A stretch of DNA of 64,000 nt from Saccharothrix ecbatanensis (GTDB lineage Bacteria > Actinomycetota > Actinomycetes > Mycobacteriales > Pseudonocardiaceae). The stretch lies in the NCBI RefSeq assembly GCF_014205015.1, contig NZ_JACHMO010000001.1, forward strand, positions 8,060,001 through 8,124,000, given 5' to 3'. Below, one piece after another: positions 13,870-64,000 of this stretch. The notes beneath the pieces are model-generated. The model was not told the DNA's origin. It saw only the letters and a list, made by a program, of their open reading frames with translations, and did no database searches. Every line of letters begins with the position of its first letter. Position 1 is the first letter of the stretch. Made by a program: the position numbers and the translations under genes.

Positions 13870-16631
13870 GATTCCTCCCCGGTGTCGAACGGGATGACGA
13901 CCTGCGGCCGTGAGTGCTCGAACCGGTCGAAGAACAGGCCCCGGCGCGGTCGCGGTGACCACGCCATGACCTGCTCCGGTCCGAACGACAGCAGCTCCTT
14001 GCCCTGGATGTCGAACGCGACCCACGCGCCGATGTCGTCGTAGACACCGGGCGAAAGGGTGTTCTTCAGCCGCTGCGCGCCACGCCACCAGCCCAGCACG
14101 TGGGTGCGGTTCTCCGGGCCGTGTTTGAGCACTGTTCGCAGGTTGTCCACCCCGGAGACACGCGTCGTCGGGTTCTTCGCCTCCAACAGGGTGTGCGCCG
14201 CGTCCACCGCGTAAACCACCACGTAGTGCGGTTGCAATGGCGCGCCCGTCTCACCGGTGATGCTCGCGGTGATCCGACCGGCCACGCCCTCGACCAGCGT
14301 CCTGATGCCGTCGAGGCCCAGCAGGTCCACCGCGTGGCCCGCGTCGCGCAGCTGCTTGGCCAGCTTCTCCGCGTGCGGCCAGGCGTCCTCGGCCAGGCAC
14401 GCCAGGGTGAACTGCGCGTCGTTCGGCTCGTGCTGCCGGGCCAGCGACAGCGCCGCGCCGGCCAGCACGTCCGCCGCGTCCTCGGCCAGCGACCCGAGCA
14501 CGGCGATGTTCCGGCCCGGCGTGCGGGCGAAGCGCACCTTGGCCGCGCTGCCCGCCACGTCGATCACCTGGCCGAGCAGCACGGTCGGGTTGCCCGCGCC
14601 CGGCGCCAGCGCCCGGAAGTCCGGCAGCGCCTGGAGCGCGGGCACCTTGCTGCCGTCGAACAGGATCGGCTCGGCCAGGTCCGGCGGCCGACGCCGGTGC
14701 AGCTCCGCTTGCAGCTTGTCGAACGTGCCCTTGGCGGTGGCGTCCGGGATGCGCGCGACCTCGTTGCCCGGCCGGACGCCCGACTCGTGGTTGACCACCG
14801 CGTGCCAGCGGGGCAGCTCCACCGCGGCGTCGTTCTGCGGCTCGGCCAGCACCCGCCGTGCCTTCGGCAGCGCGATGCGCACGGTGAACTGCTCGAAGAT
14901 CGCCGACTTGCCCCAGAAGCCCTCGATGCCGGACACGTCCTGGCTGGACAGCACCAGGTGGATGCCCTGCGACCGGCCGCGCCGGGCCACGTCCTCCAGC
15001 AGTTGGGTGGCCTGCGCGGTGACCTGGTCGCGTTCGCCGAACAGGTACTGGAACTCGTCGATCACCGCGACGACCCGCGGCCAGTGGCCGAGCGGGTCCT
15101 CCTCGCGCAGCTGCTCCAGCTTGGTGACCTCGTGCCGCTTCGCCGCGTCCGCGCGCCGGCGCATCTCGTCGGCCAGGAACGCCAGCAGCGCCACGCCGAA
15201 CTCGCGGTCGGTGTTGACGTTCACGCCGACCAGCCGCGCGTGCGGCAGCCACGTCGGGTCCTTGCGGCCCGGCGCGAACTGGGCGAACGACACGCCCTCC
15301 TTGAAGTCCAGCAGGTACAGCTCAAGCTCGTCCGGCTCGTACCGGGCGGCCAGGCTGCCGAGCATGGCGTAGAGGAAGTTCGTCTTGCCCGAACCGCTCG
15401 GCCCGCCGATCAACGCGTGCGGCGACGTGTCGCCCAGCGCCACGTGCACCGGCTCGCCCTCCAGGAAGCCCACCGGCGCGACGACGCCCGCCGACGAGTC
15501 CTCCCGCCACAGCTGCTCCGGCAGCAGGTCGGCGAACGTGCTCAGCCGGTTCCGGCGCTCGTCCCGCTTGTCGGCGATCGCCGCGCACGCGCGGGGCACC
15601 AGCGCGCGGGGGAACGGCGGGTCGAGCGCGACCGTCACGTGCTTGCCGGTCATCGTGCAGGTCGCGGTCTGGTCGGCGGCGATCGTGACGGTCTCGATCG
15701 GCGAGTTGACGGTGACCGGGATGTCGACGACGACGAGCTGGATGCCGGCCGCCAAACCGTTGCGCGCCACCCGTTGCAGCTGCTGCTGGTGCTCTTCCCG
15801 CAACGCCTGCCGGTTGCCGAACAGCACCGCCACCCGCCACGGCTCGGTCCGCCGCCCGCCCGCCGCCGTCACCGACTGGTGGCCCTCGACCAGCACGCCG
15901 GTGTGCACCCGGCGGATGTGGTCGGACAGCTCGTCCAGCAGCTCGTGCAGCCGGGCCGGGTCGTGCACGGTCAGCAGGCCCGCGCGGGTCAGCGGGTAGA
16001 GGCCGGGCAGCGCGCCGGTGAGCTGGCCGACGTCCCACACGTGGACGTGCACCAGACCGGGCTGGAAGTGGCTCAACAGGCGCAGCAGCAGGTTCTCCAC
16101 CAGGCCTTCGGCCGCGGGCCTGCTCTCGTACGTGGAGGACACGTGCAGGTGCGCGTGGTCGAGCAGCGGCACCGCCACCGGGAACCGCTGCGGCTCGGGC
16201 GCGCTGCGGACCGTGCCGGTGCCGATGCGCCACAGCTCGGGCACGCCTTCGGTCGCGTCGGCCGTGCCCGGTGTGCCGAGCCACCTCTCGTGCGGCCACG
16301 ACGCCGGGCCGTCCGCCACCGCGTCGACCAGGCCGGTCAACGCGTCCGGCCCGTGCTCCGACCAGTCGCGGAACGCGGCCACCCGGTCGATCAGCGCCTG
16401 CGCCACCTGCTGCCGGAACAGCGGGTTCGCCAACGCCTCCGCCAGCAGCGGATCTTCCTTCGCGCGGTCGATCCCCTGCCCGCGCACCATCACCTCGACC
16501 ATGTCGCGGGCGCGTTCGGCGGCGAGTTGGCGCTGCTCGCGCGAGGCGTTGCCCAACGCGGCGGCGACGGCCCTGCGGAACTCCTCGAAGGAGCTCTCGA
16601 TCCTCTTCCGGCGCTCGTCACGCCTGCTCAC
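13866..16631 (-). CDS. FtsK/SpoIIIE (EccC-like) ATPase, soluble
   Basis: 921-aa ATPase. The first about 110 residues are charged helices; a degenerate domain follows. The active FtsK/SpoIIIE domain has Walker A IGGPSGSGKTNFL near residue 410, VVAVIDEFQYLFG (Walker B) near 522, and SQGIHLVLSSQDV. A third domain with a Walker-like but degraded start (NIAVLGSLAEDAADVLAGA) occupies the C-terminus. Three RecA-like domains in a row recall EccC of type VII secretion, but the two N-terminal membrane helices of EccC and the gamma DNA-reading domain of FtsK are both absent. Start GTG lies 1 base after the stop of the previous gene. Confidence 0.85.
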   Translation of the reverse strand: MSRRDERRKRIESSFEEFRRAVAAALGNASREQRQLAAERARDMVEVMVRGQGIDRAKEDPLLAEALANPLFRQQVAQALIDRVAAFRDWSEHGPDALTGLVDAVADGPASWPHERWLGTPGTADATEGVPELWRIGTGTVRSAPEPQRFPVAVPLLDHAHLHVSSTYESRPAAEGLVENLLLRLLSHFQPGLVHVHVWDVGQLTGALPGLYPLTRAGLLTVHDPARLHELLDELSDHIRRVHTGVLVEGHQSVTAAGGRRTEPWRVAVLFGNRQALREEHQQQLQRVARNGLAAGIQLVVVDIPVTVNSPIETVTIAADQTATCTMTGKHVTVALDPPFPRALVPRACAAIADKRDERRNRLSTFADLLPEQLWREDSSAGVVAPVGFLEGEPVHVALGDTSPHALIGGPSGSGKTNFLYAMLGSLAARYEPDELELYLLDFKEGVSFAQFAPGRKDPTWLPHARLVGVNVNTDREFGVALLAFLADEMRRRADAAKRHEVTKLEQLREEDPLGHWPRVVAVIDEFQYLFGERDQVTAQATQLLEDVARRGRSQGIHLVLSSQDVSGIEGFWGKSAIFEQFTVRIALPKARRVLAEPQNDAAVELPRWHAVVNHESGVRPGNEVARIPDATAKGTFDKLQAELHRRRPPDLAEPILFDGSKVPALQALPDFRALAPGAGNPTVLLGQVIDVAGSAAKVRFARTPGRNIAVLGSLAEDAADVLAGAALSLARQHEPNDAQFTLACLAEDAWPHAEKLAKQLRDAGHAVDLLGLDGIRTLVEGVAGRITASITGETGAPLQPHYVVVYAVDAAHTLLEAKNPTTRVSGVDNLRTVLKHGPENRTHVLGWWRGAQRLKNTLSPGVYDDIGAWVAFDIQGKELLSFGPEQVMAWSPRPRRGLFFDRFEHSRPQVVIPFDTGEES

Positions 16632-51119: not shown

Positions 51120-52355
51120 TCACGGGCTTGCCGACGCGAAATCGTTCCGCCGGGTCCGCGCGGATCTGATCCAGGAGAACACGGCGGGCACGGCGAGCAC
51201 GGCGGACACCCCGCACATGATCAGCATCAGGTGCTGCGCGCCCAACGCCGTGCCGAACAGCGACAACAGGACACCCGCGACCGGCGTGGCGGCGAGCACG
51301 GCGGCGACGAAGAACCCGAGCGCGCCGCCGACGGCGTCCGCCGGCAGGTAGTCCAGTCGCCTCGTGCGCAACCAGATCGTGAACACGGTGACTCCGGCCG
51401 TCCACAGGACGTAGGCGACGGTGAAGACGACCAAGGTCGGCGCGAGTGCCATCGCCGGACCGCTCGCGACCAGCGCGACACCGGCGCCCGCGACCACGGT
51501 GCCGATGGACGTCCTGCGGAGCAGCCGTTTCGTGAGCAGTGCGGCCACGAGGCTCATCACGCTCGCCGCGCCCGCCACCACGCCGGTCATGGACGGCGCG
51601 GCGTCGAAATCGCCGACGACGATCACCGGGAGCGCACCCAGGGCGAGACCGGCCACGAGGTTCACGATGACGGTCAGCGACACCAGCGACATCAACGGCT
51701 TGCTGCCCAGCACGACCCGTGCGCCGTCGACGAGGTTGCGCAGCGGCGACCCGGCCACAGGGCTACGGCGCACTTCCAGGGACCTGAGCGCGGCGAACGT
51801 CGCCACCGCCGCGACCACGAGCACACCCGCGATCAGCACGACGCCACCGGACAGACCCGGCCACAGCAGCAGTGCGCCACCCAGCGCGGGACCCGCCGTG
51901 AACGACAGTTGTTGCGCCACCTGCACCCTCGACTGGGCGTCCGGCATGAGCGGGCTCGGCACGCATCTCGCGAGCACGGTCTCCGTCGCGATCACCGCGT
52001 GCCCGTTGAGCAGGGTCATCACGGCGGACGCGGCCATCAGCGCCACCGGCTCCGCGACCACCGCCACCACCAGGAGGACACCCGCCCTGGCGAGGTCGTT
52101 GACCAGGAACTGCCTCCTGATCGGAAACCGGTCCACCAGCACGCCGAGGACGGGCAGCGCCATGACCCGGGGCAGCCACTGCACGGCGAACGCCAGCCCG
52201 GACAACTGGACGCTGCCCGTGGTCGCGTAGATGACCACGGGGATCAGGTACGTCGACATCTGATCGGCGAGCAGGCCGAGGAACCGCGCGGCGATCAGTC
52301 GTTGCACGGCGCGCGCGGTCGTGCCCGGAGTCTCCCGCACGGCCGTGGGGTTCAC
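51120..52355 (-). CDS. MFS transporter, last gene of the biosynthetic operon
   Basis: 411-aa MFS protein with about 12 membrane helices: LIAARFLGLLADQMSTYLIPVVIYATTGSVQLSGLAFAVQWLPRVMALPVLGVLVDRF and RTSIGTVVAGAGVALVASGPAMALAPTLVVFTVAYVLW. It resembles EntS/MdfA-like exporters of natural products. GTG start overlaps the stop of the ATP-grasp gene (GTGA), so it is coupled to the biosynthetic genes and is the probable exporter of their product. Confidence 0.88.
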   Translation of the reverse strand: MNPTAVRETPGTTARAVQRLIAARFLGLLADQMSTYLIPVVIYATTGSVQLSGLAFAVQWLPRVMALPVLGVLVDRFPIRRQFLVNDLARAGVLLVVAVVAEPVALMAASAVMTLLNGHAVIATETVLARCVPSPLMPDAQSRVQVAQQLSFTAGPALGGALLLWPGLSGGVVLIAGVLVVAAVATFAALRSLEVRRSPVAGSPLRNLVDGARVVLGSKPLMSLVSLTVIVNLVAGLALGALPVIVVGDFDAAPSMTGVVAGAASVMSLVAALLTKRLLRRTSIGTVVAGAGVALVASGPAMALAPTLVVFTVAYVLWTAGVTVFTIWLRTRRLDYLPADAVGGALGFFVAAVLAATPVAGVLLSLFGTALGAQHLMLIMCGVSAVLAVPAVFSWIRSARTRRNDFASASP

Positions 52356-53563
52356 GCCAGCACTAACGAGTCGTTGAGCCAGGCCATGGCGTGCTCGATT
52401 TCGTCCAGCACGACGCGGCGGCTGTCCCCGACGACGACCATCGCGGCCACGCAGTCCACGCTGGACGACGAGTCGGTCAGCTCGGTGCCGACCACGACAC
52501 GCAGGTCGTAGTCCTTCACGGCGGGCAACGGGCACACGCTCGGCACGGACGTGACGACACCGGGACGGGGCGGCGCCAGCAGCCACCCGGCCTGCGTGTG
52601 CGGCGCCGCGGCCGGCGTCGGCATGCGGTCACCGGTGCCGAACGTGTGCCGGACGTACCACTCCAGCATGTCGACCCCGAACGCCTGGATGAGCATGTCC
52701 CTGATCTTGCCGCCGCCCACGCGGCAGCCGATCTCGTTGAAGACCAGCTCACCCTCGGGAGTGCGGAACACCTCGGCGTGGAACAGGCTCACGTTCGGCG
52801 TCGGCAACGCCCTGATGGCGCTCGTGGTCAGCTCGACGAGGGCGGCTCGGTACGGGTCGTCGGGTTCGAGCGCCGACGACACCAGCGGGTCACCCGACTC
52901 GAACGCGAGCCCGTTGGTGATCTGCGACGGCCAGCACAACCGCACCTCGCCGTCACGCACGCAGCCGTCGACCGTGTACATCTCGTTGGGCACAAAGCGT
53001 TCCGCGATCAGGTGCGCGGGCTGGTCGGTCTTGATCGGACACCCGGGGCCGAGGAACCGCTCCAGCTCAAGCTGGTCCCGCAGCACGTGCACGTCGATGG
53101 ACGACGCGCCGGTGCGGGGCTTCACCACCACGGGGTAGTCGTGGCGACGGGTGAACTCGATGAGGTCCGTCGCGCTGTCGACCGCGCCGTACGCGGTCAC
53201 CGGCACGCCCGCCGCGCTGAGCACCTGCTTCATCACCAGTTTGTCGCGGTAGGCGGTGGCGCTGTGCACACCTTGCCCCGGCAGTCCCCACGCCGCCCGC
53301 AGCGTGGCGGCCCGCAGGATGTCGAACTCGGACATGGCGAGCACCGCGTCGAAGCGGTAGGTGTCGTGCAGGCGGTAGGCGTGGAACTCGACCATCGCCG
53401 TGCTGGTGTAGTCGTCCAGCGCCACGATCTCCGCGTACCCCTCCGGCTCGACGGGGGGCAGCGCGCCCGCGCGGGTCAGTAGCACCAGTTCGTGCTCGTC
53501 GTCGATCCACTCGCGGTAGGGCACCCGGTCGAGCACGTAGCGGTTGAGGATGAGGATCTTCAT
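52352..53563 (-). CDS. ATP-grasp ligase II
   Basis: 403-aa ATP-grasp enzyme: MKILILNRYVLDRVPYREWID, ATP site YPVVVKPRTGASSIDVHVL, metal site LVFNEIGCRVGGGKIRDML. Family members join a carboxylate to an amine with ATP (L-amino-acid ligases, BtrJ/DdaF-like). The C-terminal 110 residues form an extra domain. ATG overlaps the stop of the first ATP-grasp gene. Two ligases imply at least two amide bonds, or bond plus phosphorylated intermediate, in the product. Confidence 0.88.
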   Translation of the reverse strand: MKILILNRYVLDRVPYREWIDDEHELVLLTRAGALPPVEPEGYAEIVALDDYTSTAMVEFHAYRLHDTYRFDAVLAMSEFDILRAATLRAAWGLPGQGVHSATAYRDKLVMKQVLSAAGVPVTAYGAVDSATDLIEFTRRHDYPVVVKPRTGASSIDVHVLRDQLELERFLGPGCPIKTDQPAHLIAERFVPNEMYTVDGCVRDGEVRLCWPSQITNGLAFESGDPLVSSALEPDDPYRAALVELTTSAIRALPTPNVSLFHAEVFRTPEGELVFNEIGCRVGGGKIRDMLIQAFGVDMLEWYVRHTFGTGDRMPTPAAAPHTQAGWLLAPPRPGVVTSVPSVCPLPAVKDYDLRVVVGTELTDSSSSVDCVAAMVVVGDSRRVVLDEIEHAMAWLNDSLVLA

Positions 53564-54804
53564 GTCGGGAATTCCTGCCAGTCGAAGGACAACGCCCGCA
53601 CGGCGTCGTTCGCACGCTCAGCCGCTACCGCCGAGTTCTCGCCCGTGGCGATGACCGAGGCCACCCGGTCGCGGTTGGACCCGTTGCTCTCGTACGTCAC
53701 GCCGACTCCCTTGTACAGTCGCACTTCCGCCACGTCCGGCCGTGCCAGCACGTCGTCCACGCCCTGGATCGAACGCAACCGACCACTCGGCGGCGCCACG
53801 GCGAACGCGATGGCCGCGCCACCCGTTCCCGTGCCCGGCTCTCCCGGCGGCAGCCCGAGATGGGCGCGCACGAGCTCCGTGGTCAGGTCCACGCCGATCG
53901 CCAGCCGCACCAGTTCCGGGATGCGGTCGCCCGCGAGCCGCGGGTTGACCTCGATGATCTTCGTCTGATCGCCGGAGAGCCGGAGTTCGACGTGCGCGGC
54001 GCCCCACTCGAGGCCGAGCACGCGCAAGGCCGTCAACGCCGCGACCGCCGCCTGTCGGTGCACGGACTCCGGTTCCGGCGCGGGCACCAGGTGCCCGAGC
54101 TCGACGAAGTACGGCTCCGGTCCGATCACCTTCCTGGTGACGGCGACGGCGCGGCCACTCACGACCTCGACCGAGAACTCGGCGCCGTGGATGTACTCCT
54201 CGACCTGCACCAGCGGTCGCACCGCGAGCCCGACGTACTCGCCGACGGCCAGGATCAGCCGTGCCTGGTCCCGCACCTCCTCCTCGGTGGCGCAGAGCTT
54301 CACGAACGCGCTGCCGGTCAGGTGCACCGGCTTCACGACCACGGGGAAACCCAGCTCGGCCGCCCGCTTGGCGACGAGCACCGGGTCGTCGCCGACGACG
54401 TGCCCGACCGTCAGTTCCGGCGCGCGGTCCCGCAGCACGTCGCGCATCTCCGGCTTGTCGCGGCACCGCGCGACGGCGTCCGGATCCGGCCCCGGCACAC
54501 CGAAGACCAGCGCGGCGCGGGCGGCGATCTCCATCGTGTACTCGTAGAAGGACGCGATCCCCCGCAGTTCGTACTCTTCCGCCAGCTCACCGCACGCACG
54601 CAAGACCTCGTCGAGGTCGAACGTCGCGCACTTCACGACCGGCACCCCGAGTTCGGCGTAGCGGTCCAGCAGCCCCGCGGGGAGGTCTGCCGCCATCTGG
54701 CTCAGCAGCACCGGTTGGACGCCGCACTCCCGCATCCGCACGGCCGCCGACTCACCCGCGCCGGTGCGCGGGGTCTCGACGATCACACACGCGTCCGGCT
54801 TCAC
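53560..54804 (-). CDS. ATP-grasp ligase I
   Basis: 414-aa ATP-grasp enzyme: VKPDACVIVETPRTGAGES, MRDVLRDRAPELTVGHVVGDD, ATP site GFPVVVKPVHLTGSAFVKLC, VEEYIHGAEFSVEVV and IIEVNPRLAGDRIPELVRLAIG. The pattern fits L-amino-acid/peptide ligases. Only moderate similarity to the second ligase (different N-termini), so each probably has its own substrate. GTG start overlaps the HAD stop (GTGA). Confidence 0.9.
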   Translation of the reverse strand: MKPDACVIVETPRTGAGESAAVRMRECGVQPVLLSQMAADLPAGLLDRYAELGVPVVKCATFDLDEVLRACGELAEEYELRGIASFYEYTMEIAARAALVFGVPGPDPDAVARCRDKPEMRDVLRDRAPELTVGHVVGDDPVLVAKRAAELGFPVVVKPVHLTGSAFVKLCATEEEVRDQARLILAVGEYVGLAVRPLVQVEEYIHGAEFSVEVVSGRAVAVTRKVIGPEPYFVELGHLVPAPEPESVHRQAAVAALTALRVLGLEWGAAHVELRLSGDQTKIIEVNPRLAGDRIPELVRLAIGVDLTTELVRAHLGLPPGEPGTGTGGAAIAFAVAPPSGRLRSIQGVDDVLARPDVAEVRLYKGVGVTYESNGSNRDRVASVIATGENSAVAAERANDAVRALSFDWQEFPT

Positions 54805-55457
54805 GACGCGCCTCCGGCGAGCGCCACGAGGTCGGCGCACCCGAGCACCGCCAGGTCTGGGTCGACCCGCACGGCGGTGCCCTGAAAACGGCCGGGGTCG
54901 GGACCGATGCCGACGAAGGGGAGGCCGAGCGCGGCGGCGGCCTCGGCGTCCCACGCGCCGTCGCCGACCGACACCGCCCGCTCGTGCGCCGCCCGGCCGA
55001 CCGCCGCGGCCACGATCTCCACGCGGCTGAGGTGGTCGCTCGCGGTCACGACCGGGAACTTCTCGGCGGCGGGCCCGAGGTGCGCGAGCTTCATCGCGGT
55101 GACGCCGGCCATCCCACCCGTCGCCACCACGGCCGTGCAAGAGTCCGATTCGGACAGTTCGGCGATCAGCCGCGCCGCACCGGGCACCTCCTCCAGCGGA
55201 TCTCGCGCGAGTTCCTCGCCGAAGTACTCGGTGAGCAACGAGTCCAACCGCGCCAGTTCCTCCGGCGAGACACCGCGACCGACACCGGCCTCGAACAGCT
55301 CGTCGAGGATGCCCGAGTCCGTGTGGTGCCGGAACCGGTCCCAGCCGCCGGTCACCACGGGCACCGGGAAGTGCGCGTACGCGCGCACCAGCGCGGCCTG
55401 GTGCTGGCGCACGCTGAGCAGCAGGGTGCCGTCGATGTCCAGCACGACCGTCACCAT
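54801..55457 (-). CDS. HAD-family phosphatase
   Basis: 218-aa HAD hydrolase: MVTVVLDIDGTLLL (nucleophile and acid Asp), VVATGGMAGVTAMKL, SVGDGAWDAEAAAAL (GDGxxD). A helical cap of about 70 residues follows motif I. In this operon it could remove a phosphate or CMP-derived phosphate from an intermediate. GGAGG stands 6 bases before the ATG, and the gene overlaps the PssA-like gene by 7 bases. Confidence 0.88.
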   Translation of the reverse strand: MVTVVLDIDGTLLLSVRQHQAALVRAYAHFPVPVVTGGWDRFRHHTDSGILDELFEAGVGRGVSPEELARLDSLLTEYFGEELARDPLEEVPGAARLIAELSESDSCTAVVATGGMAGVTAMKLAHLGPAAEKFPVVTASDHLSRVEIVAAAVGRAAHERAVSVGDGAWDAEAAAALGLPFVGIGPDPGRFQGTAVRVDPDLAVLGCADLVALAGGAS

Positions 55458-56092
55458 GGTCCACCTCCGTCAAGGACGATCAGCATTGGCGCCGCTACGA
55501 CGCAGAAAGCGGTGAAAACGTACACACCCCAGCCGGTGATCTTCGGCACCGACAGCGAGGAGACGTGCAGCACCGCACAGCACACGACCACGGCGTAGAG
55601 GACGACTGGCAACGCGGAACCGAGCAACGGCGTGGCCAGCACCACCAGCGCTATCGCCGGGGTGTTGTGCACGATCGGCAGACCGCGGTAGCGGCCGGAC
55701 ACGTCGAGTCCCACCACGTTGAAGTAGGCGAGCCGGACCGCGCCGGCCACCGCCACCGCCAGCGCGCCCGGCCAGTACTGCGGCGCGAACCCGCCCGCGG
55801 CCAGCAGCACCATGGCCGGGTTGATCCCGCCGCTCACCAGGTCGGCGAGCGAGTCGAGCTGACCACCGAACTCACGGGTCAGCTGCGCGCGGCCCGCCGT
55901 GGCACGCGCTACGCGGCCGTCCCACCAGTCGCACAGCACCGCGAGCAGCGTCATCGCGACCGCGAGCTCGACCCGGCCGATCGCGGCGAACGCGGTGCCG
56001 CAGATCGCGAGCACCAACCCGCCGAGCGTCAGCAGGTTGGCGGGATCGGCGACAACGGCGCCGATGCCCGGCCGGCGGAGGTCGCCGCTCAC
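55451..56092 (-). CDS. CDP-alcohol phosphotransferase (PssA-like) with an altered motif
   Basis: 213-aa membrane protein. Motif DWWDGRVAR...GGQLDSLADLV carries the four Asp (55, 58, 80, 84) of CDP-alcohol phosphatidyltransferases, and EFGGQLDSLADLVS is PssA-like. Between AR and the following Gly there are 12 residues instead of the usual 8, a 4-residue insertion. Four or five membrane helices. These enzymes replace CMP of a CDP-alcohol with another alcohol. GTG overlaps the previous stop. In an operon that makes a CMP-activated intermediate its role could be to spend that activation. Confidence 0.88.
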   Translation of the reverse strand: MSGDLRRPGIGAVVADPANLLTLGGLVLAICGTAFAAIGRVELAVAMTLLAVLCDWWDGRVARATAGRAQLTREFGGQLDSLADLVSGGINPAMVLLAAGGFAPQYWPGALAVAVAGAVRLAYFNVVGLDVSGRYRGLPIVHNTPAIALVVLATPLLGSALPVVLYAVVVCCAVLHVSSLSVPKITGWGVYVFTAFCVVAAPMLIVLDGGGPW

Positions 56093-57945
56093 GCCGGCAC
56101 GACCAGCCGGTGACTGTCGTCCGCCGTGAGCCGCGCCATCCCGTCGAGCAGCCGGTAGTTCTCCTCGGCGGTCCGGGACGCGATGCGCAGGAACCGGTGA
56201 CCGTCCGCCATCGACTTCCCGGCGCAGTGCTTCACCATGGTGCCGTAGAAGGTGAACAGGTCCTCGGCGAGTGCGCGCCCGTCCATCGCCCCGGTCAGCT
56301 CGACCATCACGAAGTTCGCGTCCGGTCGCCACGCGGTGATGCCGTCGATGTCGACCAGGCCGTGGTAGAGCTGGTCGCGCTCGACGCGCACCTGGCGGCA
56401 GCTGAGGGTGAAGTCGTCCAGGAACCTCGGCAGCAGCCGCAGGAACGACTCGGCGAACCCGTTGACGTTCCAGATCGGCAGGTCGGCCCGGACGGCGTCC
56501 ACGAAGTCGGTGTCGGCCGACGCGAGGTAGCCGAGCCGCAACCCGCCGATCCCGTACACCTTGCTCATGCTCTTGAGGATCACGAGGTTCGGGTGCTGGT
56601 CCAGCTCACCGGCGAGCGTCTGCCGAGCCGGGTCCGCGCAGAAGTCCACGAAGGACTCGTCCAGCAGCAGGGTGCAGCCCGCCGACGCCAGCTCGCGGCA
56701 CAGCCTGCGCAGGTCGGCGGCGGGCACCGCCAGCGAAGTCGGGTTGTTCGGGCTGACCACGATCGCCAGTTTGGCGCCGCACCGCCGCGCCTCGGCGGCC
56801 AACGCGTCGACGTCCAGCTCGAACGACGGCCTCGGCAGCTCGTGCCGGACCAGGCGACCGGGCCCGACGCTGTTCTCGTACTCGTTGAACCCCGGCACCG
56901 GGATGATCACCGGGCCGGACGTGACGCGGACCAGCGCGCGGATCAGCTCCGAACCGCCGTTGGCGACCGCGAGCCGGTCCTCGTCGAGACCGAGGGCGAG
57001 GGACGCGAGCCGGGCCAGCTCCCGTTGCCCGCTCGGGTAGTGCGCGATGAGGTGGTCCATGTCCCGTGCCAGCGCCCGTTTCAGACCGCGCGGCGGGAAG
57101 TGCAGGTTGTACAGCAACGCGTGGTCGATCACGGGGTACCGCCAGTAACTGCCGTAGATCTCGTTGAGCCTGCGCAGTTGTGCCTTGCGGTCGGTGAGCT
57201 GGAACTCGGCCCGGTCGCGGTCGGTGTGGTCGTCGATCTCGAACCACTGCTCGGCCGGCCACACGACCTGGTGGAACTCGAACCGGCCCCGCTCGATGGA
57301 GCGTCGGAACACCGACTCGTAGTAGTCGCCGGTGTTTCCGGCGGCGATGGCCGCGTCCAGGTCCGGGACCAGCTCTTCGACGAGGTACTCCCGGCGGAGC
57401 AAGGAGATGTTGACGGTCTTGAACGTGCCGTCGAAGTCGAAGTCGTCGCCCTGGTTCGGCTTGTCGAACAGGCGGGCGACGCGCCCGGTCGGGTCCGCGG
57501 TGACGACCGTGCCGTCCATCGTGGACGACCACGGCGAGGTGGCGATCACGTTGCCGGCCGGCCTGGTCAGCAACGACCGCAGCAGGTGGCCGCGGTAGAC
57601 GATGTCGGCTTCGAGCAGCAGCACGTCCTCGGTGAGGTGCTCGCGGGCCAGCCAGAGCGAGTAGATGTTGTTGGTCGTGCGGAAGTCCTCCGACATGACG
57701 TACGTGACGTCGATGCCGGCGAAGCGGGCGCCGACCGCCTCCCGGATCTGTTCGTGCATGTGGCCGACCACGATCACGGCGGTTTCGACGCCGACGGCCG
57801 CGAGGTTCTCCAACGTCCGGTGCAGGATCGCCTTGTCGGCGATCTCGATGAGCGGCTTCGGGCTGGCACGGGTGGACAGACCGAGGCGGTTTCCCCTGCC
57901 TGCGGCCAGGATGATGGCTCGGGTGGGTGTCGTGGCTGTAGTCAA
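56089..57945 (-). CDS. cytidylyltransferase-PLP enzyme fusion (FrbH/PntC-like)
   Basis: 618-aa bifunctional protein. Residues 1-265: NTP transferase, AIILAAGRGNRLGLSTRASPKPLIEIADKAILHRTLENL, LEADIVYRG (Asp114), DFDFDGTFKTVNISLLRREYL. Residues 270-618: CobD/HisC-like PLP enzyme, NGGSELIRALVRV, SPNNPTS, LLLDESFVDF (Asp429), SKVYGIGGLRLGY (Lys462, PLP). FrbH of FR-900098 biosynthesis has the same fusion: it attaches CMP to 2-amino-4-phosphonobutyrate and decarboxylates it. TTG start, with GGAG 7 bases upstream; 64 bases after the N-oxygenase gene. Confidence 0.9.
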   Translation of the reverse strand: MTTATTPTRAIILAAGRGNRLGLSTRASPKPLIEIADKAILHRTLENLAAVGVETAVIVVGHMHEQIREAVGARFAGIDVTYVMSEDFRTTNNIYSLWLAREHLTEDVLLLEADIVYRGHLLRSLLTRPAGNVIATSPWSSTMDGTVVTADPTGRVARLFDKPNQGDDFDFDGTFKTVNISLLRREYLVEELVPDLDAAIAAGNTGDYYESVFRRSIERGRFEFHQVVWPAEQWFEIDDHTDRDRAEFQLTDRKAQLRRLNEIYGSYWRYPVIDHALLYNLHFPPRGLKRALARDMDHLIAHYPSGQRELARLASLALGLDEDRLAVANGGSELIRALVRVTSGPVIIPVPGFNEYENSVGPGRLVRHELPRPSFELDVDALAAEARRCGAKLAIVVSPNNPTSLAVPAADLRRLCRELASAGCTLLLDESFVDFCADPARQTLAGELDQHPNLVILKSMSKVYGIGGLRLGYLASADTDFVDAVRADLPIWNVNGFAESFLRLLPRFLDDFTLSCRQVRVERDQLYHGLVDIDGITAWRPDANFVMVELTGAMDGRALAEDLFTFYGTMVKHCAGKSMADGHRFLRIASRTAEENYRLLDGMARLTADDSHRLVVPA

Positions 57946-58009
57946 GAGTCTTCTCCGTGAGCGCGCGGACGGGCCGCAGGCGCACCTGCCGGCGGCGACA
58001 ACGATTTCG

Positions 58010-59293
58010 TCAGACGATGGCGGGGCGGCGCAGTGTCGAGGTGATGACGGACGCGACGTCGTGCTGGTAGAGCCAGACACCGTCCGCCCGGCCGCGGAAG
58101 CGCGGCTCGCCACCGACCGCGGAGGACACCCGCAGCCCGCAACCGAGCCCGAACGCGACGAGTTCCGGCACGGACCGCCCGGACTCGTCGACGAGGTGCC
58201 CGTCGGCGTCGACCGCGTGGCCGTCCGCCGTGGTCAGCAGGCGCAGCGACTCGCCGTCCCGTCCGGTGACGGGCGGGACGGCGCCGTCGAACCCGGTCGC
58301 CGCGACCACGAGGTCCGCGGCCGCCAGCACGTCGGTGTACGTCCGACGTGGGGCGTCCGGGGTGATCGGCAGCACGTCGAGCGTCGAGGGCCGCGTACCG
58401 GCCAAGCCCATCGTGCGGGCCGCGAGGTCCTTCGCCCTGCCGCGCAGGCCGCTGTACCGGTTGACCCTGCCGCTCAACGGGCACACGTCCTCGGTGTCGA
58501 ACGGGTAGCCCTCGGCGGCCGCCATGGCGGTGCTGGTGTAGAACAACCGCAGCGGGCTGCGGTGGAGCACCGTGACGTGCGGACGCTCGCCGAGTAGTTC
58601 CTCCTCCAGCAACAGATGTGCGACCGACCAGGCGCTGTGCGCGCCGCCGACGACGACCACGCGCGGGTTCGGACCCAGCGCGGCGAGTTCGGCGCGGCGG
58701 TCGATCAGGGCCGAGGAGTGCACCGACTTGTCGAGGTAGTGCCACAGGTTCAGGTCATCGCGCAGCTTGATCCGGTCCAGCGGACGGGGCTGCCCGCCGG
58801 TGGCGACGACCACGGTGCGCGCCGTCGCGGTGTCCGCCGCCCCGGTGGCCTCGTCGACCATCCGCACCTCGGCCCCGCCCGCCGGCAGCAGCCGGATGGC
58901 GTCGACCCGGGTGCCCAGGCGGACGTCACCGCCGGGGTGCGAGGCAATCGCTTCCCCCACAACGGTTCCGAGCTCGCGCAGGTACTCGCCCACCACCGGC
59001 AGCGGCGGCGTCGTGCCTGCCAACGCCCGCACGGCGGCCACTGACGAGTGGTCCCGCAGAGCGGCGAGCCGGGGGTCGACGCCATCGTCGTCCAGCGCCT
59101 CCAGGAACGCCCCGCCGAGCGAGTTGGCTTCGATCCGGTAGTGCGCCAGCGATCCCGCGCCGAGCTGCGCGGACCGCTCGACCAGCAGGACGCCGGGCGC
59201 CAGGAACGCGTCAAGTGCGTTGTGCCGCATGGCGTGCACGAAAAGGCCGGTGCCCGCCGGACCGCCACCGCAGACGATCAGATCGTGGATCAC
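58010..59293 (-). CDS. flavin-dependent N-oxygenase-like monooxygenase (FrbG-like)
   Basis: 427-aa FAD/NADPH enzyme of the ornithine/lysine N-hydroxylase class: FAD site DLIVCGGGPAGTGLF, NADPH site VVVVGGAHSAWSVAHLL, and VVAATGFDG (ATG[YF] motif). It probably hydroxylates a primary amine to a hydroxylamine, as FrbG does on CMP-bound 3-aminopropylphosphonate. GTG overlaps the stop of the acyltransferase gene (GTGA). Confidence 0.87.
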   Translation of the reverse strand: MIHDLIVCGGGPAGTGLFVHAMRHNALDAFLAPGVLLVERSAQLGAGSLAHYRIEANSLGGAFLEALDDDGVDPRLAALRDHSSVAAVRALAGTTPPLPVVGEYLRELGTVVGEAIASHPGGDVRLGTRVDAIRLLPAGGAEVRMVDEATGAADTATARTVVVATGGQPRPLDRIKLRDDLNLWHYLDKSVHSSALIDRRAELAALGPNPRVVVVGGAHSAWSVAHLLLEEELLGERPHVTVLHRSPLRLFYTSTAMAAAEGYPFDTEDVCPLSGRVNRYSGLRGRAKDLAARTMGLAGTRPSTLDVLPITPDAPRRTYTDVLAAADLVVAATGFDGAVPPVTGRDGESLRLLTTADGHAVDADGHLVDESGRSVPELVAFGLGCGLRVSSAVGGEPRFRGRADGVWLYQHDVASVITSTLRRPAIV

Positions 59294-60099
59294 GCGACGG
59301 TCTCCAGCACGCGGTTGGCGAGCAGCCAGCTCACCGCGAGGTCGACGAACGGTCGTTGCGGGAACAGGACGGCCTCGCCGTCACCGACCTTGCCCGTGCG
59401 GGCTTCGGGCAGGCGGTCGAGACACCACCGGCCCATCGGTTCGAAGTCCTCTTCGTACAGCTCGATGTCGTCGCAGGTCGTCCACTGGACGCGGCCTTCG
59501 CGCCGCACGGGCACCGACCTGGTGAGCGTTCTGCGGCCCGCGTAGTCGGCCCGGTTCTCGGCGAGGTGGAACGACGTGTTCTTCGCGAAACCGATGCCCA
59601 GCAACAACACCCATCCGTCCACGTCGTAGATCCGCGCCAACGGCGATCCCTCGCCGAAGCGGTAGGCCGGCGTGTGCTCGCCGACGATGTGCGCGGCCTT
59701 CGGTCCGCTAGCCGCGAACGAGTTCTGCGGATGCGGACTGCGCAGCACGTCCCGTCCGGTGCGGAAGCACTCGGCAACGGCCCCCATGCCACGGGTGGCC
59801 GTGCGCGCTTCGTCGTAGGCGGGCAACTCTTCCCGGATCGTGTCCCACCATTCCCGCGGCGCGGGCGGGTTGCGCCAGGTCGCCGGATCGGACAGTTGCC
59901 CCGAGAACGTCGGCATCACCAGCGTCCCAGCGGTTCCGACAGCCGTTTCGAGCGCGGTGACCACGGCGTGCGCGCCACCGCAGACCCAACCGAGAGCGCT
60001 CAGCGACGAGTGCACGAGGAGGGTGCTCCCCTCCACCACGCCAAGTGCACGCAGATCGCGTTCTAACGAGCGTGCCGTGACAACAGCAGCATCCTCCAC
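59290..60099 (-). CDS. AAC(3)-fold N-acyltransferase (FrbF-like), first gene of the operon
   Basis: 269-aa member of the AAC(3)/YokD family: LLVHSSLSALGWVCGGAHAVVTALETAVGTAGTLVMPTFSGQL, VLRSPHPQNSFAASGPKA, LLLGIGFAKNTSFHLAEN (catalytic His). AAC(3) enzymes acetylate aminoglycosides, but FrbF has this fold and acylates an N-hydroxyaminoalkylphosphonate. Alternative reading: self-resistance. GTG is chosen; a TTG one codon upstream suits the GGGGGGAG site equally. Confidence 0.88.
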   Translation of the reverse strand: MEDAAVVTARSLERDLRALGVVEGSTLLVHSSLSALGWVCGGAHAVVTALETAVGTAGTLVMPTFSGQLSDPATWRNPPAPREWWDTIREELPAYDEARTATRGMGAVAECFRTGRDVLRSPHPQNSFAASGPKAAHIVGEHTPAYRFGEGSPLARIYDVDGWVLLLGIGFAKNTSFHLAENRADYAGRRTLTRSVPVRREGRVQWTTCDDIELYEEDFEPMGRWCLDRLPEARTGKVGDGEAVLFPQRPFVDLAVSWLLANRVLETVA

Positions 60100-60358: not shown

Positions 60359-60377
60359 TCACCCGGCGAAAGGTGAG

Positions 60378-60450
60378 TGCCCCCGGCAGGATTCGAACCT
60401 GCGACACACGGTTTAGGAAACCGATGCTCTATCCCCTGAGCTACGAGGGC
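60378..60450 (-). tRNA. tRNA-Arg (anticodon CCT)
   Basis: 73-base tRNA. Acceptor GCCCTCG / CGGGGGC (one G-U pair), D arm GCTC-AGGGGATA-GAGC, anticodon loop TTCCTAA giving CCT (reads AGG), T arm GCAGG-TTCGAAT-CCTGC, discriminator A, no encoded CCA. The first anticodon-stem pair is T-T. tRNA genes are common integration sites; no integrase or duplicated 3' end is seen here. Confidence 0.95.
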
Positions 60451-61521: not shown

Positions 61522-62268
61522 GTGACCCACAACCTGACCGAGGTGCGCGGCGCGGCCGTGGCGGGCGCGTTGCGCGTCCTCGCCCGGCTGACGCCGTTCG
61601 TCGAACCCGAGCTGATCGGCCTGCGCGACGTGGTGCGACCCGGTGACGTGTGCGTCGACATCGGCGCCGCGCTCGGCCTCTACACCGTGTCGCTGTCGCG
61701 CCTGGTCGGTCCACACGGGACTGTTCACAGCGTCGAGCCGCTGGTGTTCGCGCACCCGACGCTGTCGTACCTGCTCCGCCCGCGCGAGGCCCGCAACGTG
61801 GTGCGGCACTCAGTCGCGCTCGGCGCCAGCGAGGGCCAGGACGTGATGAGCGTCCCGGTCCGCCACGGCTCGCCGATCACCGGACGCTCGTTCCTCACCA
61901 CCGGCGCGGACGGGCTCGGCTCCAACGCCGAGTTCGCCGACCACCTCGAAGTCCTCGTCCGCACGGACACCCTGGACCGGTTCTGCGCGGCCAACGCGAT
62001 CGACCGGCTGGACTTCGTCAAGGCCGACGTGGAAGGCGCGGAACTCCGCGTGCTGCAAGGCGGTTCCGCGACCATCGAGAGGTTTCGACCGAAACTTCTC
62101 CTGGAGATCGAGGAACGGCACGTGCGGCGCTTCGGCTACCGCGCCAAGGACGTCCAGGACTGGCTCGCCGACTACGGCTACCGGATGCACGTCTGGCGCC
62201 GGAACACCTGGCGCCGCACCGACCGGATCGACGACCGCGTGCGCAACTACCTGTTCCAGCCACGGTGA
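61522..62268 (+). CDS. FkbM-family methyltransferase
   Basis: 248-aa SAM methyltransferase: VCVDIGAALGLYTVSLSRLVGPHGTVHSVEPL, LDFVKADVEGAELRVLQGG, LLLEIEERHVRRFGY, the FkbM pattern for O-methylation of sugars or polyketides. GTG start, 10 bases after the previous gene. Followed by a very strong terminator. Confidence 0.92.
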   Translation: MTHNLTEVRGAAVAGALRVLARLTPFVEPELIGLRDVVRPGDVCVDIGAALGLYTVSLSRLVGPHGTVHSVEPLVFAHPTLSYLLRPREARNVVRHSVALGASEGQDVMSVPVRHGSPITGRSFLTTGADGLGSNAEFADHLEVLVRTDTLDRFCAANAIDRLDFVKADVEGAELRVLQGGSATIERFRPKLLLEIEERHVRRFGYRAKDVQDWLADYGYRMHVWRRNTWRRTDRIDDRVRNYLFQPR

Positions 62269-62350: not shown

Positions 62351-64000
62351 CTACGTCACGTAGACCTCAAGTTCGTAAACTGAGTATCCGTAACCCGTCG
62401 CCCGTTGGATACCCGTCATTCGTACGAATCGTGCCGCACCAGGGGCGAACGACGCAAGATCCCGGCCGCCATCACCCACGGATGTCGTATGAACCGTGCG
62501 CCACGTGCTGCCGTCGGTCGACAGCTCTATGCGATATGCCCTGGCATACGCGGCTTCCCAGGACAGCGCGACCCGGCCGACGGTGCGCGTCGCGCCCAGG
62601 TCCACCTGCAACCACTGCTGATCGGACCAGTCGCTGGCCCACCGCGTGTCCGGCTTGCCGTCGACCGCGTTGGACGGCGGCGACGGGTACCAGCCCCGCT
62701 CGTGGCTGCTGGCGGTCGCGGTGGCGCCGGCCGCGAGGTTGGCCAGGTTCGTACCGCGGCGGGACGGGAACTGGACGACCTGCTGGTACGTGGGCCGGTT
62801 CTGCCAGTTCACCTTGTCGTGCGTGATGCCGCCCATGGACCGGTGGATGATGGTGTCCGCGCACCACTGGTCGCCCGCCGCGCAGGACGCGTCACCGGGG
62901 TACACCGAGGTCGCGGGCTTGGCTGCCGCCGCACGCAGGCTGTCCAGCAGCACCTGACGGCACGCGGTGAGCGAGCCGCCGCCGCAGTACTTGGCGCCGA
63001 GCGGACCGTCCACACGATCGCCGAGCACCGCCCGCAGGTCCTTGTCGACATAGCTCCACCAGCCGTACTGGAACGAGGAGCCCTTGTGCGGCGCGGCGCC
63101 GTGCGCGTCCGACGGCGGCTCGTCCACCTGGATGGCACGTGTCAGCTGACCGTGGAGGCCGTCACCCAGTCCGGGCTTGAACTGCGCCTCCACCAGCATC
63201 GGCCACCACGCGTCCAGCACCCGGATCGCCTCGGCGTGCCCGTACGCCTTGCTGCCGCGTGACGTCTCCTTGCGCAGCGAGCCGGACCGTTGCCAGTCAC
63301 GCAGCTTCGTCACCGCCGACGCCAACGCCGGATCGGTCACCGCGGCCGTGTCGATCACCCGCAGGAGGTCCGGCAGCACCTGTTCGGCCCGCAGGTCGGC
63401 CACGCCCGCCTCGGCCATCGCGCGCGTCAACGACGCCCGCGTGACGGGACCGCGTGCGATCAGCGCACGCACCCGGTCGTCCAGCAGGTCGCCGCGGTGC
63501 ACGGAGCCGTTGCCGTAGCCCGCCGCCGAGAAGTCCGCCGCCTGCTTGTTGTTCCAGCTGATGTAGTAGTCCTGGTTGATCGAGTTCGGGTGCTGCGCGA
63601 ACGGCGTGTAGGTCGCCGTGTTGCGGTCGGCGTTCCAGCCCTCCCACTCGTACGCGGGCTCGGCCTTCACCGGCAGGTGCGGGTCCACGGACGCCTTGCG
63701 CACGGGGTTCGCGCCGGAGTTGAAGTACGCGGTGTCGCGGGAGTCCACGTAGAACCAGTTGAACGCGTACCCGATGTGCTCGGCGGCACGCTGGAAGTCG
63801 GCCGCAGACCTGATCGCGTCGGGGTCGTTGAACTCCTGGAACCCGACGATCGAGTCCACCTCGTGCAGGTAGGTCGACCGCAGGGACGTGTACGCGACGA
63901 ACTTCCCGTCCACCTTCGCGCGGCTCTGCACCAGACCGTACTTCGTGCGGTACATGACGAGCGTGTACGAGCCGGCGGGCGTCGGATCGGCCACCGTGGG
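62351..64000 (-). CDS. penicillin acylase-family hydrolase with F5/8 (discoidin) domain, N-terminus cut
   Basis: About 549 residues before the window ends. The main part resembles penicillin/acyl-homoserine-lactone acylases: DSRDTAYFNSGANP, HPNSINQDYYISWNNKQAADFSAAGYG, then helical RALIARGPVTRASLTRAM and GGITHDKVNWQNRPTYQQVVQFPSRRG. The last 140 residues form an F5/8-type discoidin carbohydrate-binding domain (NLAAGATATASSHERGWYPSPPSNAVDGKPDTRWASDW). The catalytic Ser and signal peptide lie outside the window. Probably a secreted amidase with a surface- or sugar-binding tail. Confidence 0.88.
   Translation of the reverse strand, partial: PTVADPTPAGSYTLVMYRTKYGLVQSRAKVDGKFVAYTSLRSTYLHEVDSIVGFQEFNDPDAIRSAADFQRAAEHIGYAFNWFYVDSRDTAYFNSGANPVRKASVDPHLPVKAEPAYEWEGWNADRNTATYTPFAQHPNSINQDYYISWNNKQAADFSAAGYGNGSVHRGDLLDDRVRALIARGPVTRASLTRAMAEAGVADLRAEQVLPDLLRVIDTAAVTDPALASAVTKLRDWQRSGSLRKETSRGSKAYGHAEAIRVLDAWWPMLVEAQFKPGLGDGLHGQLTRAIQVDEPPSDAHGAAPHKGSSFQYGWWSYVDKDLRAVLGDRVDGPLGAKYCGGGSLTACRQVLLDSLRAAAAKPATSVYPGDASCAAGDQWCADTIIHRSMGGITHDKVNWQNRPTYQQVVQFPSRRGTNLANLAAGATATASSHERGWYPSPPSNAVDGKPDTRWASDWSDQQWLQVDLGATRTVGRVALSWEAAYARAYRIELSTDGSTWRTVHTTSVGDGGRDLASFAPGAARFVRMTGIQRATGYGYSVYELEVYVT

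Follow-up and report, generated by a model that had tools for sequence, protein, structure and literature searches.

Positions 51120-60099 of the window (a 64,000-nt stretch of the Saccharothrix ecbatanensis genome, assembly GCF_014205015.1, which is a single contig of 9.69 Mb) hold eight minus-strand genes, here called A to H, whose families, as named in a first-pass annotation of the sequence, were borne out by profile searches against Pfam and NCBIfam. Genes A, B and C are homologues of FrbF, FrbG and FrbH, so that the finishing triad in the biosynthesis of the antimalarial antibiotic FR-900098 is found here in an operon without a carbon–phosphorus bond-forming enzyme. On balance we lean, from homology, towards the view that the operon's product is a conjugated inhibitor of 1-deoxy-xylulose-5-phosphate reductoisomerase (DXR), exported and of the fosfoxacin type, that is, a phosphate ester, and not a phosphonate, mimicking fosmidomycin.

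In a tblastn comparison with the locus of the FR-900098 producer S. rubellomurinus ATCC 31215 (L015), protein identities were 59% (A and FrbF), 38% (B and FrbG) and 44% (C and FrbH), and the order of the three genes was the same, as the first-pass annotation had proposed. In that locus PepM lies upstream of FrbF, with one gene intervening; in the window, the PepM family (PF13714) had no match. An orthologue of FrbC was found neither in the S. ecbatanensis genome nor in that of a congener, G008 (best hits 34% and 33%), and a paralogue in the FR-900098 producer also scores 34% to FrbC. FrbI had no match in the window at E 1e-5, a role in which hydrolases of other families could serve. Given the lack of PepM in the operon and of a detectable FrbC orthologue, a phosphate ester is likelier than a phosphonate, and we regard a phosphate product as likely.

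O-Phosphoserine, a general metabolite, is the oxygen isostere of the FrbH substrate, and FrbH also decarboxylates what it activates; applied to O-phosphoserine, the same three steps could lead to CDP-ethanolamine, then to an N-hydroxy derivative of it and finally to the N-acyl-N-hydroxy derivative. The known substrate, to which FrbH adds cytidine monophosphate (CMP), is 2-amino-4-phosphonobutyrate (PMC6697681), and FrbG recognises the CMP part of its own substrate (PMC7347517). CDP-L-serine and CDP-L-glutamine already appear in the literature as known compounds, and for C. difficile CDP-L-threonine has been proposed (PMC10714395).

In the pathway that we propose, every step of which is drawn from homology and gene company, C would join CMP to O-phospho-L-serine and then decarboxylate the product to CDP-ethanolamine, B would hydroxylate the nitrogen of the CMP-bound amine, and A would acylate it, probably with an acetyl group, to yield CDP-(N-acyl-N-hydroxyaminoethanol), a compound like fosfocytocin. 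D would move the phospho-N-hydroxyamide part to an alcohol, most likely one with an amino/carboxyl group such as serine, thereby replacing the CMP-releasing hydrolase FrbI as the step that consumes the CMP ester. F and G would add amino acids to give a peptide-like prodrug, masking the inhibitor from the producer too, and H, which we infer to transport outward, would export it. E might remove stray active phosphate or trim a precursor. That the product is an N-acyl-N-hydroxy amino-phospho compound appears highly probable to us; the first-pass annotation had read the operon in this way, with extension by amide bonds and export, and our comparisons support that reading, which we refine by favouring a phosphate ester over a phosphonate and by noting that a copy of the cluster in Priestia points to DXR.

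All eight genes recur in the same order in the congener G008 (L041), with protein identities of 90.0-95.5% over aligned residues. Ratios of nonsynonymous to synonymous substitution rates (dN/dS) between the two copies ranged from 0.19 to 0.45, and all eight genes are under purifying selection there. Gene E of G008 (L041 7877-8686) is longer by a repetitive insert of 51 residues, made up of ERAGH repeats and absent from the window copy.

A neighbourhood search recovered the gene set in G008 and on a Priestia plasmid, and partly on plasmids of Erwinia and Rahnella. Plasmid pBM700 of Priestia megaterium QM B1551 (L087) has all eight gene types, namely two ATP-grasps, B, an AAC(3) protein, C and a D homologue, the last being unannotated (L087 11841-12449, Pfam CDP-OH_P_transf, 31% identical to D), with HAD and MFS genes nearby on the opposite strand; its first ligase pairs with F (33%) and its second with G (30%). 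On Erwinia rhapontici pERA53 and a Rahnella sikkimica plasmid, B-C-D-HAD is accompanied by an HAD-IIIC protein, MaoC/SDR genes, one ATP-grasp and an MFS gene. The Erwinia HAD is 38% identical to E, and a domain scan of the Erwinia copy of the HAD-IIIC protein identified an AAC(3) domain. In a second Erwinia plasmid, NZ_AP024334.1, B is in three pieces. With the whole operon kept in G008, and its gene types together on the Priestia plasmid and in part on those of Erwinia and Rahnella, the grouping is more than chance. The set had been presented as new; no account of such a cluster, including that of pBM700, was found in the literature searched (most subscription papers lay outside the search, and an earlier description is possible), but the set is not unique to S. 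ecbatanensis.

DXR is the target of fosmidomycin and, to our knowledge, humans do not use the DXR pathway. In pBM700 a DXR gene begins 25 bp past the D homologue, which points to DXR as the target of the product; among 72,556 plasmid records, many of the 52 that contain DXR are chromosome-sized. The frb contig also carries DXR, the FR-900098 producer having two in all. We consider DXR a fairly probable target. Fosfoxacin is a natural DXR inhibitor, and it and acetyl-fosfoxacin act on Synechocystis DXR with Ki values of 19 and 2 nM, respectively, compared with 57 nM for fosmidomycin (PMC9782300).

Scanning species genomes with an alignment of B relatives gave 22 loci, the FR-900098 producer included. 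The B family has few members. Of 7996 scored candidates, 39 reached E ≤ 0.001, UniRef naming one of them FrbG, and 9 of 398 related genomes had matches (five strong, S. ecbatanensis included, and four weak). The C family is larger, with 1566 of 7995 scored proteins at E ≤ 0.001, though few Actinomycetota have strong matches over the full length (at E ≤ 1e-80, 4 of the 396 genomes sampled); D was found in 3 of 327 family genomes, S. ecbatanensis and G008 among them. A search of 321 gammaproteobacterial genomes returned nothing except the Photorhabdus centre genome.

B and C are adjacent in 14 loci (the window, L041, L010, L012, L014, L015, L022-L025, L031, L085, L086 and L087), L043 being a repeat of L012, and L014 and L031 lying on short, cut contigs. 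The gene caller split some genes wrongly; C is split in L049 and in L024 (P. thracensis), and has one stop in L089. In the Streptomyces/Kutzneria loci L010, L012 and L014, of which the Pfam scan covered L010, the B-C pair is accompanied by an AAC(3)/HAD protein, a MaoC/SDR protein, an HAD 42-44% identical to E and genes of the nonribosomal peptide synthetase (NRPS) type. The Photorhabdus locus L022 (8553-14671) comprises MFS, B, C, formyltransferase and HAD genes; a formyltransferase is present in L023-L025 too, and replaces the acyltransferase in the Photorhabdus clusters. The N-formyl hydroxamate of ethanolamine phosphate would be fosfoxacin, for which a formyltransferase after C is as expected, and by gene content these clusters look like candidates for fosfoxacin itself. 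None of the terms that we searched for occur in the text of a paper on Photorhabdus/Xenorhabdus clusters (PMC9177418).

In a quick tree of C, FrbH shared a large clade with the window and L010-type sequences, and the Erwinia, Priestia and Photorhabdus sequences fell outside it. This tree, without bootstrap and with long-branch warnings, had 61 rows: 14 window or locus sequences and 47 of 119 other listed homologues (the first 13, then every third, with P0004 and P0066 dropped for odd length). Two distant actinobacterial genomes, G640 (where C is split) and G1122 (where C has one stop), have C-D pairs without A or B and no PF13714 match. Such lone pairs fit an older CDP-ethanolamine pathway; three lone-C loci in which no D was seen (L050, L051 and L088) weigh against it.

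More tentatively, and with somewhat less than even confidence, we propose a PepM-independent antibiotic class spanning Actinomycetota, Bacillota and Enterobacterales, in which an FrbH-like enzyme would convert O-phosphoserine to CDP-ethanolamine, an FrbG-like enzyme and an acyl- or formyltransferase would complete an oxa-fosmidomycin warhead and, in some lineages, D and ATP-grasps would turn this into a peptide phosphodiester prodrug against DXR; FR-900098 would then have branched off, as a phosphonate, from a phosphate-ester pathway.

PepM was present inside the stretch read in only 1 of the 14 B-C loci (L015), and the idea that the B-C pair marks phosphonates only was rejected on this ground. 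Among ten B-C genomes searched (PF13714, with the motif read in the loci), the PepM motif was found in four (S. ecbatanensis, G008, S. katrae and S. rubellomurinus) and not seen in the other six (Streptomyces sp. MspMP-M5, a Kutzneria metagenome-assembled genome, S. hydrogenans, Photorhabdus bodei, P. thracensis and P. luminescens). These are mostly draft genomes; the L023 genome was not included, and three weak PF13714 hits, of which G778 has two and G781 one, lay outside the motif check. Three B-C plasmid records gave no PF13714 match, the search covering the plasmids and not the host chromosomes.

As to gene D, its CDP-alcohol phosphotransferase motif (DWWDGRVAR...GGQLDSLAD) is intact, as it is in all six D sequences aligned, one Priestia gap moving the spacing by one residue. 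In the M. jannaschii phosphatidylserine synthase (PSS), Ala59, Ser63 and Arg101 are named near serine (PMC8633023); counted along the alignment, the corresponding residues of D are Gly, Ser and Arg. D also keeps the LDS serine and, of the two arginines of RLARF, the first. The second is the serine-binding R189 of Candida Cho1 (PMC8727905); D has Tyr at this position, as do its counterparts from Priestia, Erwinia and G153, and the lone C-D pairs have either Tyr or His. Since the acceptor-site residues are mixed, serine is only a candidate acceptor.

ATP-grasp genes occur in all five B-C loci with D, from three lineages, and in one of the nine without it (L010), which suggests that the acceptor of D may bring the group that the ligases extend. 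Such a role could parallel O-phosphonoacetic acid serine, for which a nucleotidyl intermediate has been proposed (PMC12288639). That D forms a phosphodiester which F and G extend is, in our estimate, an even call.

Several observations weigh against a fosfoxacin-type phosphate ester, and some of them bear on whether the operon instead finishes a phosphonate, supplied by the remote PepM cluster (3.12 Mb) or by some other source, into an FR-900098-like hydroxamate conjugate. The only characterised relatives of the triad act on a phosphonate, and A is closest to FrbF, an enzyme of a phosphonate pathway. Both genomes known to have the whole operon carry the PepM motif elsewhere, as compared with a PepM-like hit (called by E-value and not by motif) in 7 of 25 genomes of the genus, both operon carriers included, and S. 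katrae combines the B-C pair and the motif in one genome. In G153, from the family of the window, homologues of F (45%), G (52%) and D (39%) lie beside PepM (motif EDKIFPKMNS), with an aminotransferase and an FAD-NAD(P)-binding protein as neighbours (L111 9754-17398), and A, B and C are absent from the 19.9 kb read around them; D-F-G therefore seems to be a portable module that also goes with phosphonates, loosening its tie to a phosphate ester. Points of other kinds are the Tyr of D at the Cho1 R189 position; the Priestia HAD and MFS proteins, which gave no match to E and H at E 1e-5 and are equal to them in type only; the Priestia AAC(3), likewise unmatched by A at that threshold; and the single DXR of S. 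ecbatanensis, at 5.9 Mb, with none in the window, so that there is no resistance copy. Moreover, 14 of the 22 scanned loci (e.g. in Mycobacterium) have B without C, and B alone is therefore no marker of the pathway; in one of these, from Sporosarcina (L028), a nucleotidyltransferase domain lies beside B and the PepM motif is present too. We nevertheless judge a phosphonate unlikely. The one S. ecbatanensis protein with the PepM motif EDKxxxxxNS (here EDKQFPKLNS) is encoded 5 Mb from the operon, in a locus (3.108-3.134 Mb; L008, L009) that looks self-contained because it has two Ppd-like halves of a thiamine-pyrophosphate enzyme, a class-V aminotransferase, two other ATP-grasps of its own and an MFS-like match, next to NRPS-like genes. 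The PepMs of the two operon carriers are only 44% identical, an FrbC orthologue was found in neither, six B-C genomes show no PepM motif, and a survey of PepM strains saw no PepM shared between two pathways within one organism (PMC12723261).

Phosphate might also serve as a handle only, E stripping it from an N-acyl-N-hydroxyethanolamine made by the CMP route and leaving a phosphorus-free peptide conjugate. The presence of E homologues in the D-less L010, L012 and L014, from which E seems to act on a shared part of the pathway, would suit such a role, as would the absence of FrbI from the window; we nonetheless hold it improbable, because D would be left without an obvious role and because DXR, encoded in the Priestia cluster, implies an inhibitor that bears phosphorus, a phosphonate or phosphate group being required according to a review of DXR-inhibitor analogues (PMC9782300). 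Even less credible to us is a modified lipid or surface polymer, in which C and D would make a phospholipid-like or polymer-bound N-hydroxyamide and not a secreted antibiotic. The lone C-D pairs of G640 and G1122, one of which has a methyltransferase as neighbour, agree with this, as do the B homologues in apparent sugar/polysaccharide loci, but two enzymes of the L-amino acid ligase type, an MFS transporter and the Priestia DXR fit a secreted antimetabolite better. The B loci in question (L016-L019, L030 and L044, from Mycobacterium and relatives) have an FrbG homologue 34-38% identical to B and no C, and their surrounding genes look, by their company, like a conserved sugar/polysaccharide locus.

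The eight genes are listed in Table 1. The first-pass annotation had described them as overlapping, which holds for six of the seven junctions (4-7 nt); B and C are separated by 64 nt if translation of C begins at TTG 57945, a codon with GGAGAA ahead of it, so that the description was slightly overstated.

Table 1. Genes of the operon, in order of transcription, with positions in the window
Gene	Assignment	Position	Strand	Length and remarks
A	AAC(3)-fold N-acyltransferase, FrbF homologue	59290..60099	-	269 aa; start GTG 60099, alternative TTG 60102
B	Flavin N-oxygenase, FrbG homologue	58010..59293	-	427 aa
C	Nucleotidyltransferase/CobD-like PLP (pyridoxal phosphate) fusion, FrbH homologue	56089..57945	-	618 aa; TTG start
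D	CDP-alcohol phosphotransferase, phosphatidylserine-synthase type	55451..56092	-	213 aa
E	HAD-superfamily hydrolase	54801..55457	-	218 aa; Pfam Hydrolase 49.5 bits
F	ATP-grasp ligase, L-amino acid ligase type	53560..54804	-	414 aa
G	ATP-grasp ligase, L-amino acid ligase type	52352..53563	-	403 aa
H	MFS exporter (predicted)	51120..52355	-	411 aa; Pfam MFS_1 73.1 bits (longer open frame)

Gene A scored 287.8 bits against Pfam Antibiotic_NAT and 186 bits against the NCBIfam AAC(3) profile, whose cut-off of 270 it did not reach, and its best match among solved structures in the PDB was FrbF itself (3sma, E 3.9e-96); an ordinary aminoglycoside-resistance gene was rejected on both counts. B exceeded the Pfam cut-offs of both Pyr_redox_2 and Lys_Orn_oxgnase, and at E 0.001 the PDB contained no match to B or to FrbG. 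C matched Pfam NTP_transf_3, NTP_transferase and Aminotran_1_2, had as its top NCBIfam profile CobD threonine-phosphate decarboxylase (under its cut-off) and contained the motifs AGRGNRL...PKP and SMSKVYGIGGLRLGY. D scored 44.4 bits against CDP-OH_P_transf; its top NCBIfam profiles, archaetidylserine synthase and PssA, were both under cut-off, and its PDB matches were limited to M. jannaschii PSS. Of the two ligases, F (longer open frame) was clearly over the cut-offs (LAL_C2 55.8, ATP-grasp_4 51.1 bits), G barely so (LAL_C2 30.0, ATP-grasp 29.1 bits), and their best PDB matches were the L-amino acid ligases BL00235 and 4wd3, respectively.

Directly upstream of gene A lies a tRNA-Arg (CCT; 60377-60450, minus strand). 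In G008 only the final 46 bases of this tRNA adjoin the operon (L041 ~14245-14290) and ARAGORN called no tRNA, a pattern like that seen where an integrated element is attached. Beyond the tRNA are an FkbM-type methyltransferase (61522-62268, plus strand) and a penicillin-amidase-like protein with F5/F8 type C domains (62351-63994, minus strand).

Our results suggest a family of phosphate-based fosmidomycin-like antibiotics overlooked by searches keyed to PepM. Genome mining for phosphonates commonly begins from pepM (PMC12723261), and clusters without it therefore go unseen. If the proposed pathway is right, it would supply a genetic basis for fosfoxacin-type antibiotics and would reveal how a DXR inhibitor, being charged, may be masked by bacteria in peptide or ester form; this problem of delivery has not been solved by the synthetic fosmidomycin/fosfoxacin prodrugs (PMC9782300, PMC10707747).

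Compared with known systems, the operon resembles the frb cluster of S. rubellomurinus in its triad, whereas the window has no homologue of PepM, FrbC, FrbI or DXR and adds D, E and two ATP-grasps. pBM700 shares with the operon a pair of ATP-grasps, homologues or equivalents of B, AAC(3), C and D, and the presence of HAD and MFS genes; it differs in its DXR, in an AAC(3) that A did not match at E 1e-5 and in HAD and MFS proteins of the same type only. The pathway to O-phosphonoacetic acid serine in Streptomyces sp. NRRL F-525 reportedly uses a CDP-alcohol phosphotransferase with serine, and we know of no N-hydroxylation in it. Its proposed nucleotidyl-activated intermediate (PMC12288639) is shared with our scheme, but its phosphonate is made by PepM. 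F and G have the ATP-grasp and LAL_C2 domains of L-amino acid ligases such as BacD, BL00235 and 4wd3, yet are distant from them and paired beside a CDP-alcohol phosphotransferase. Comparable in predicted chemistry are fosfoxacin, fosfocytocin and fosfadecin, the Pseudomonas phosphate congeners of fosmidomycin, whose biosynthetic genes were not found in the literature searched. Fosfocytocin is the CMP-linked form, the title of the paper on it speaking of "nucleotide antibiotics". The warhead predicted here would be of the same chemotype, Frb-like genes for N-hydroxylation and acylation occurring in a cluster without PepM, and would differ by a further transfer and a peptide step.

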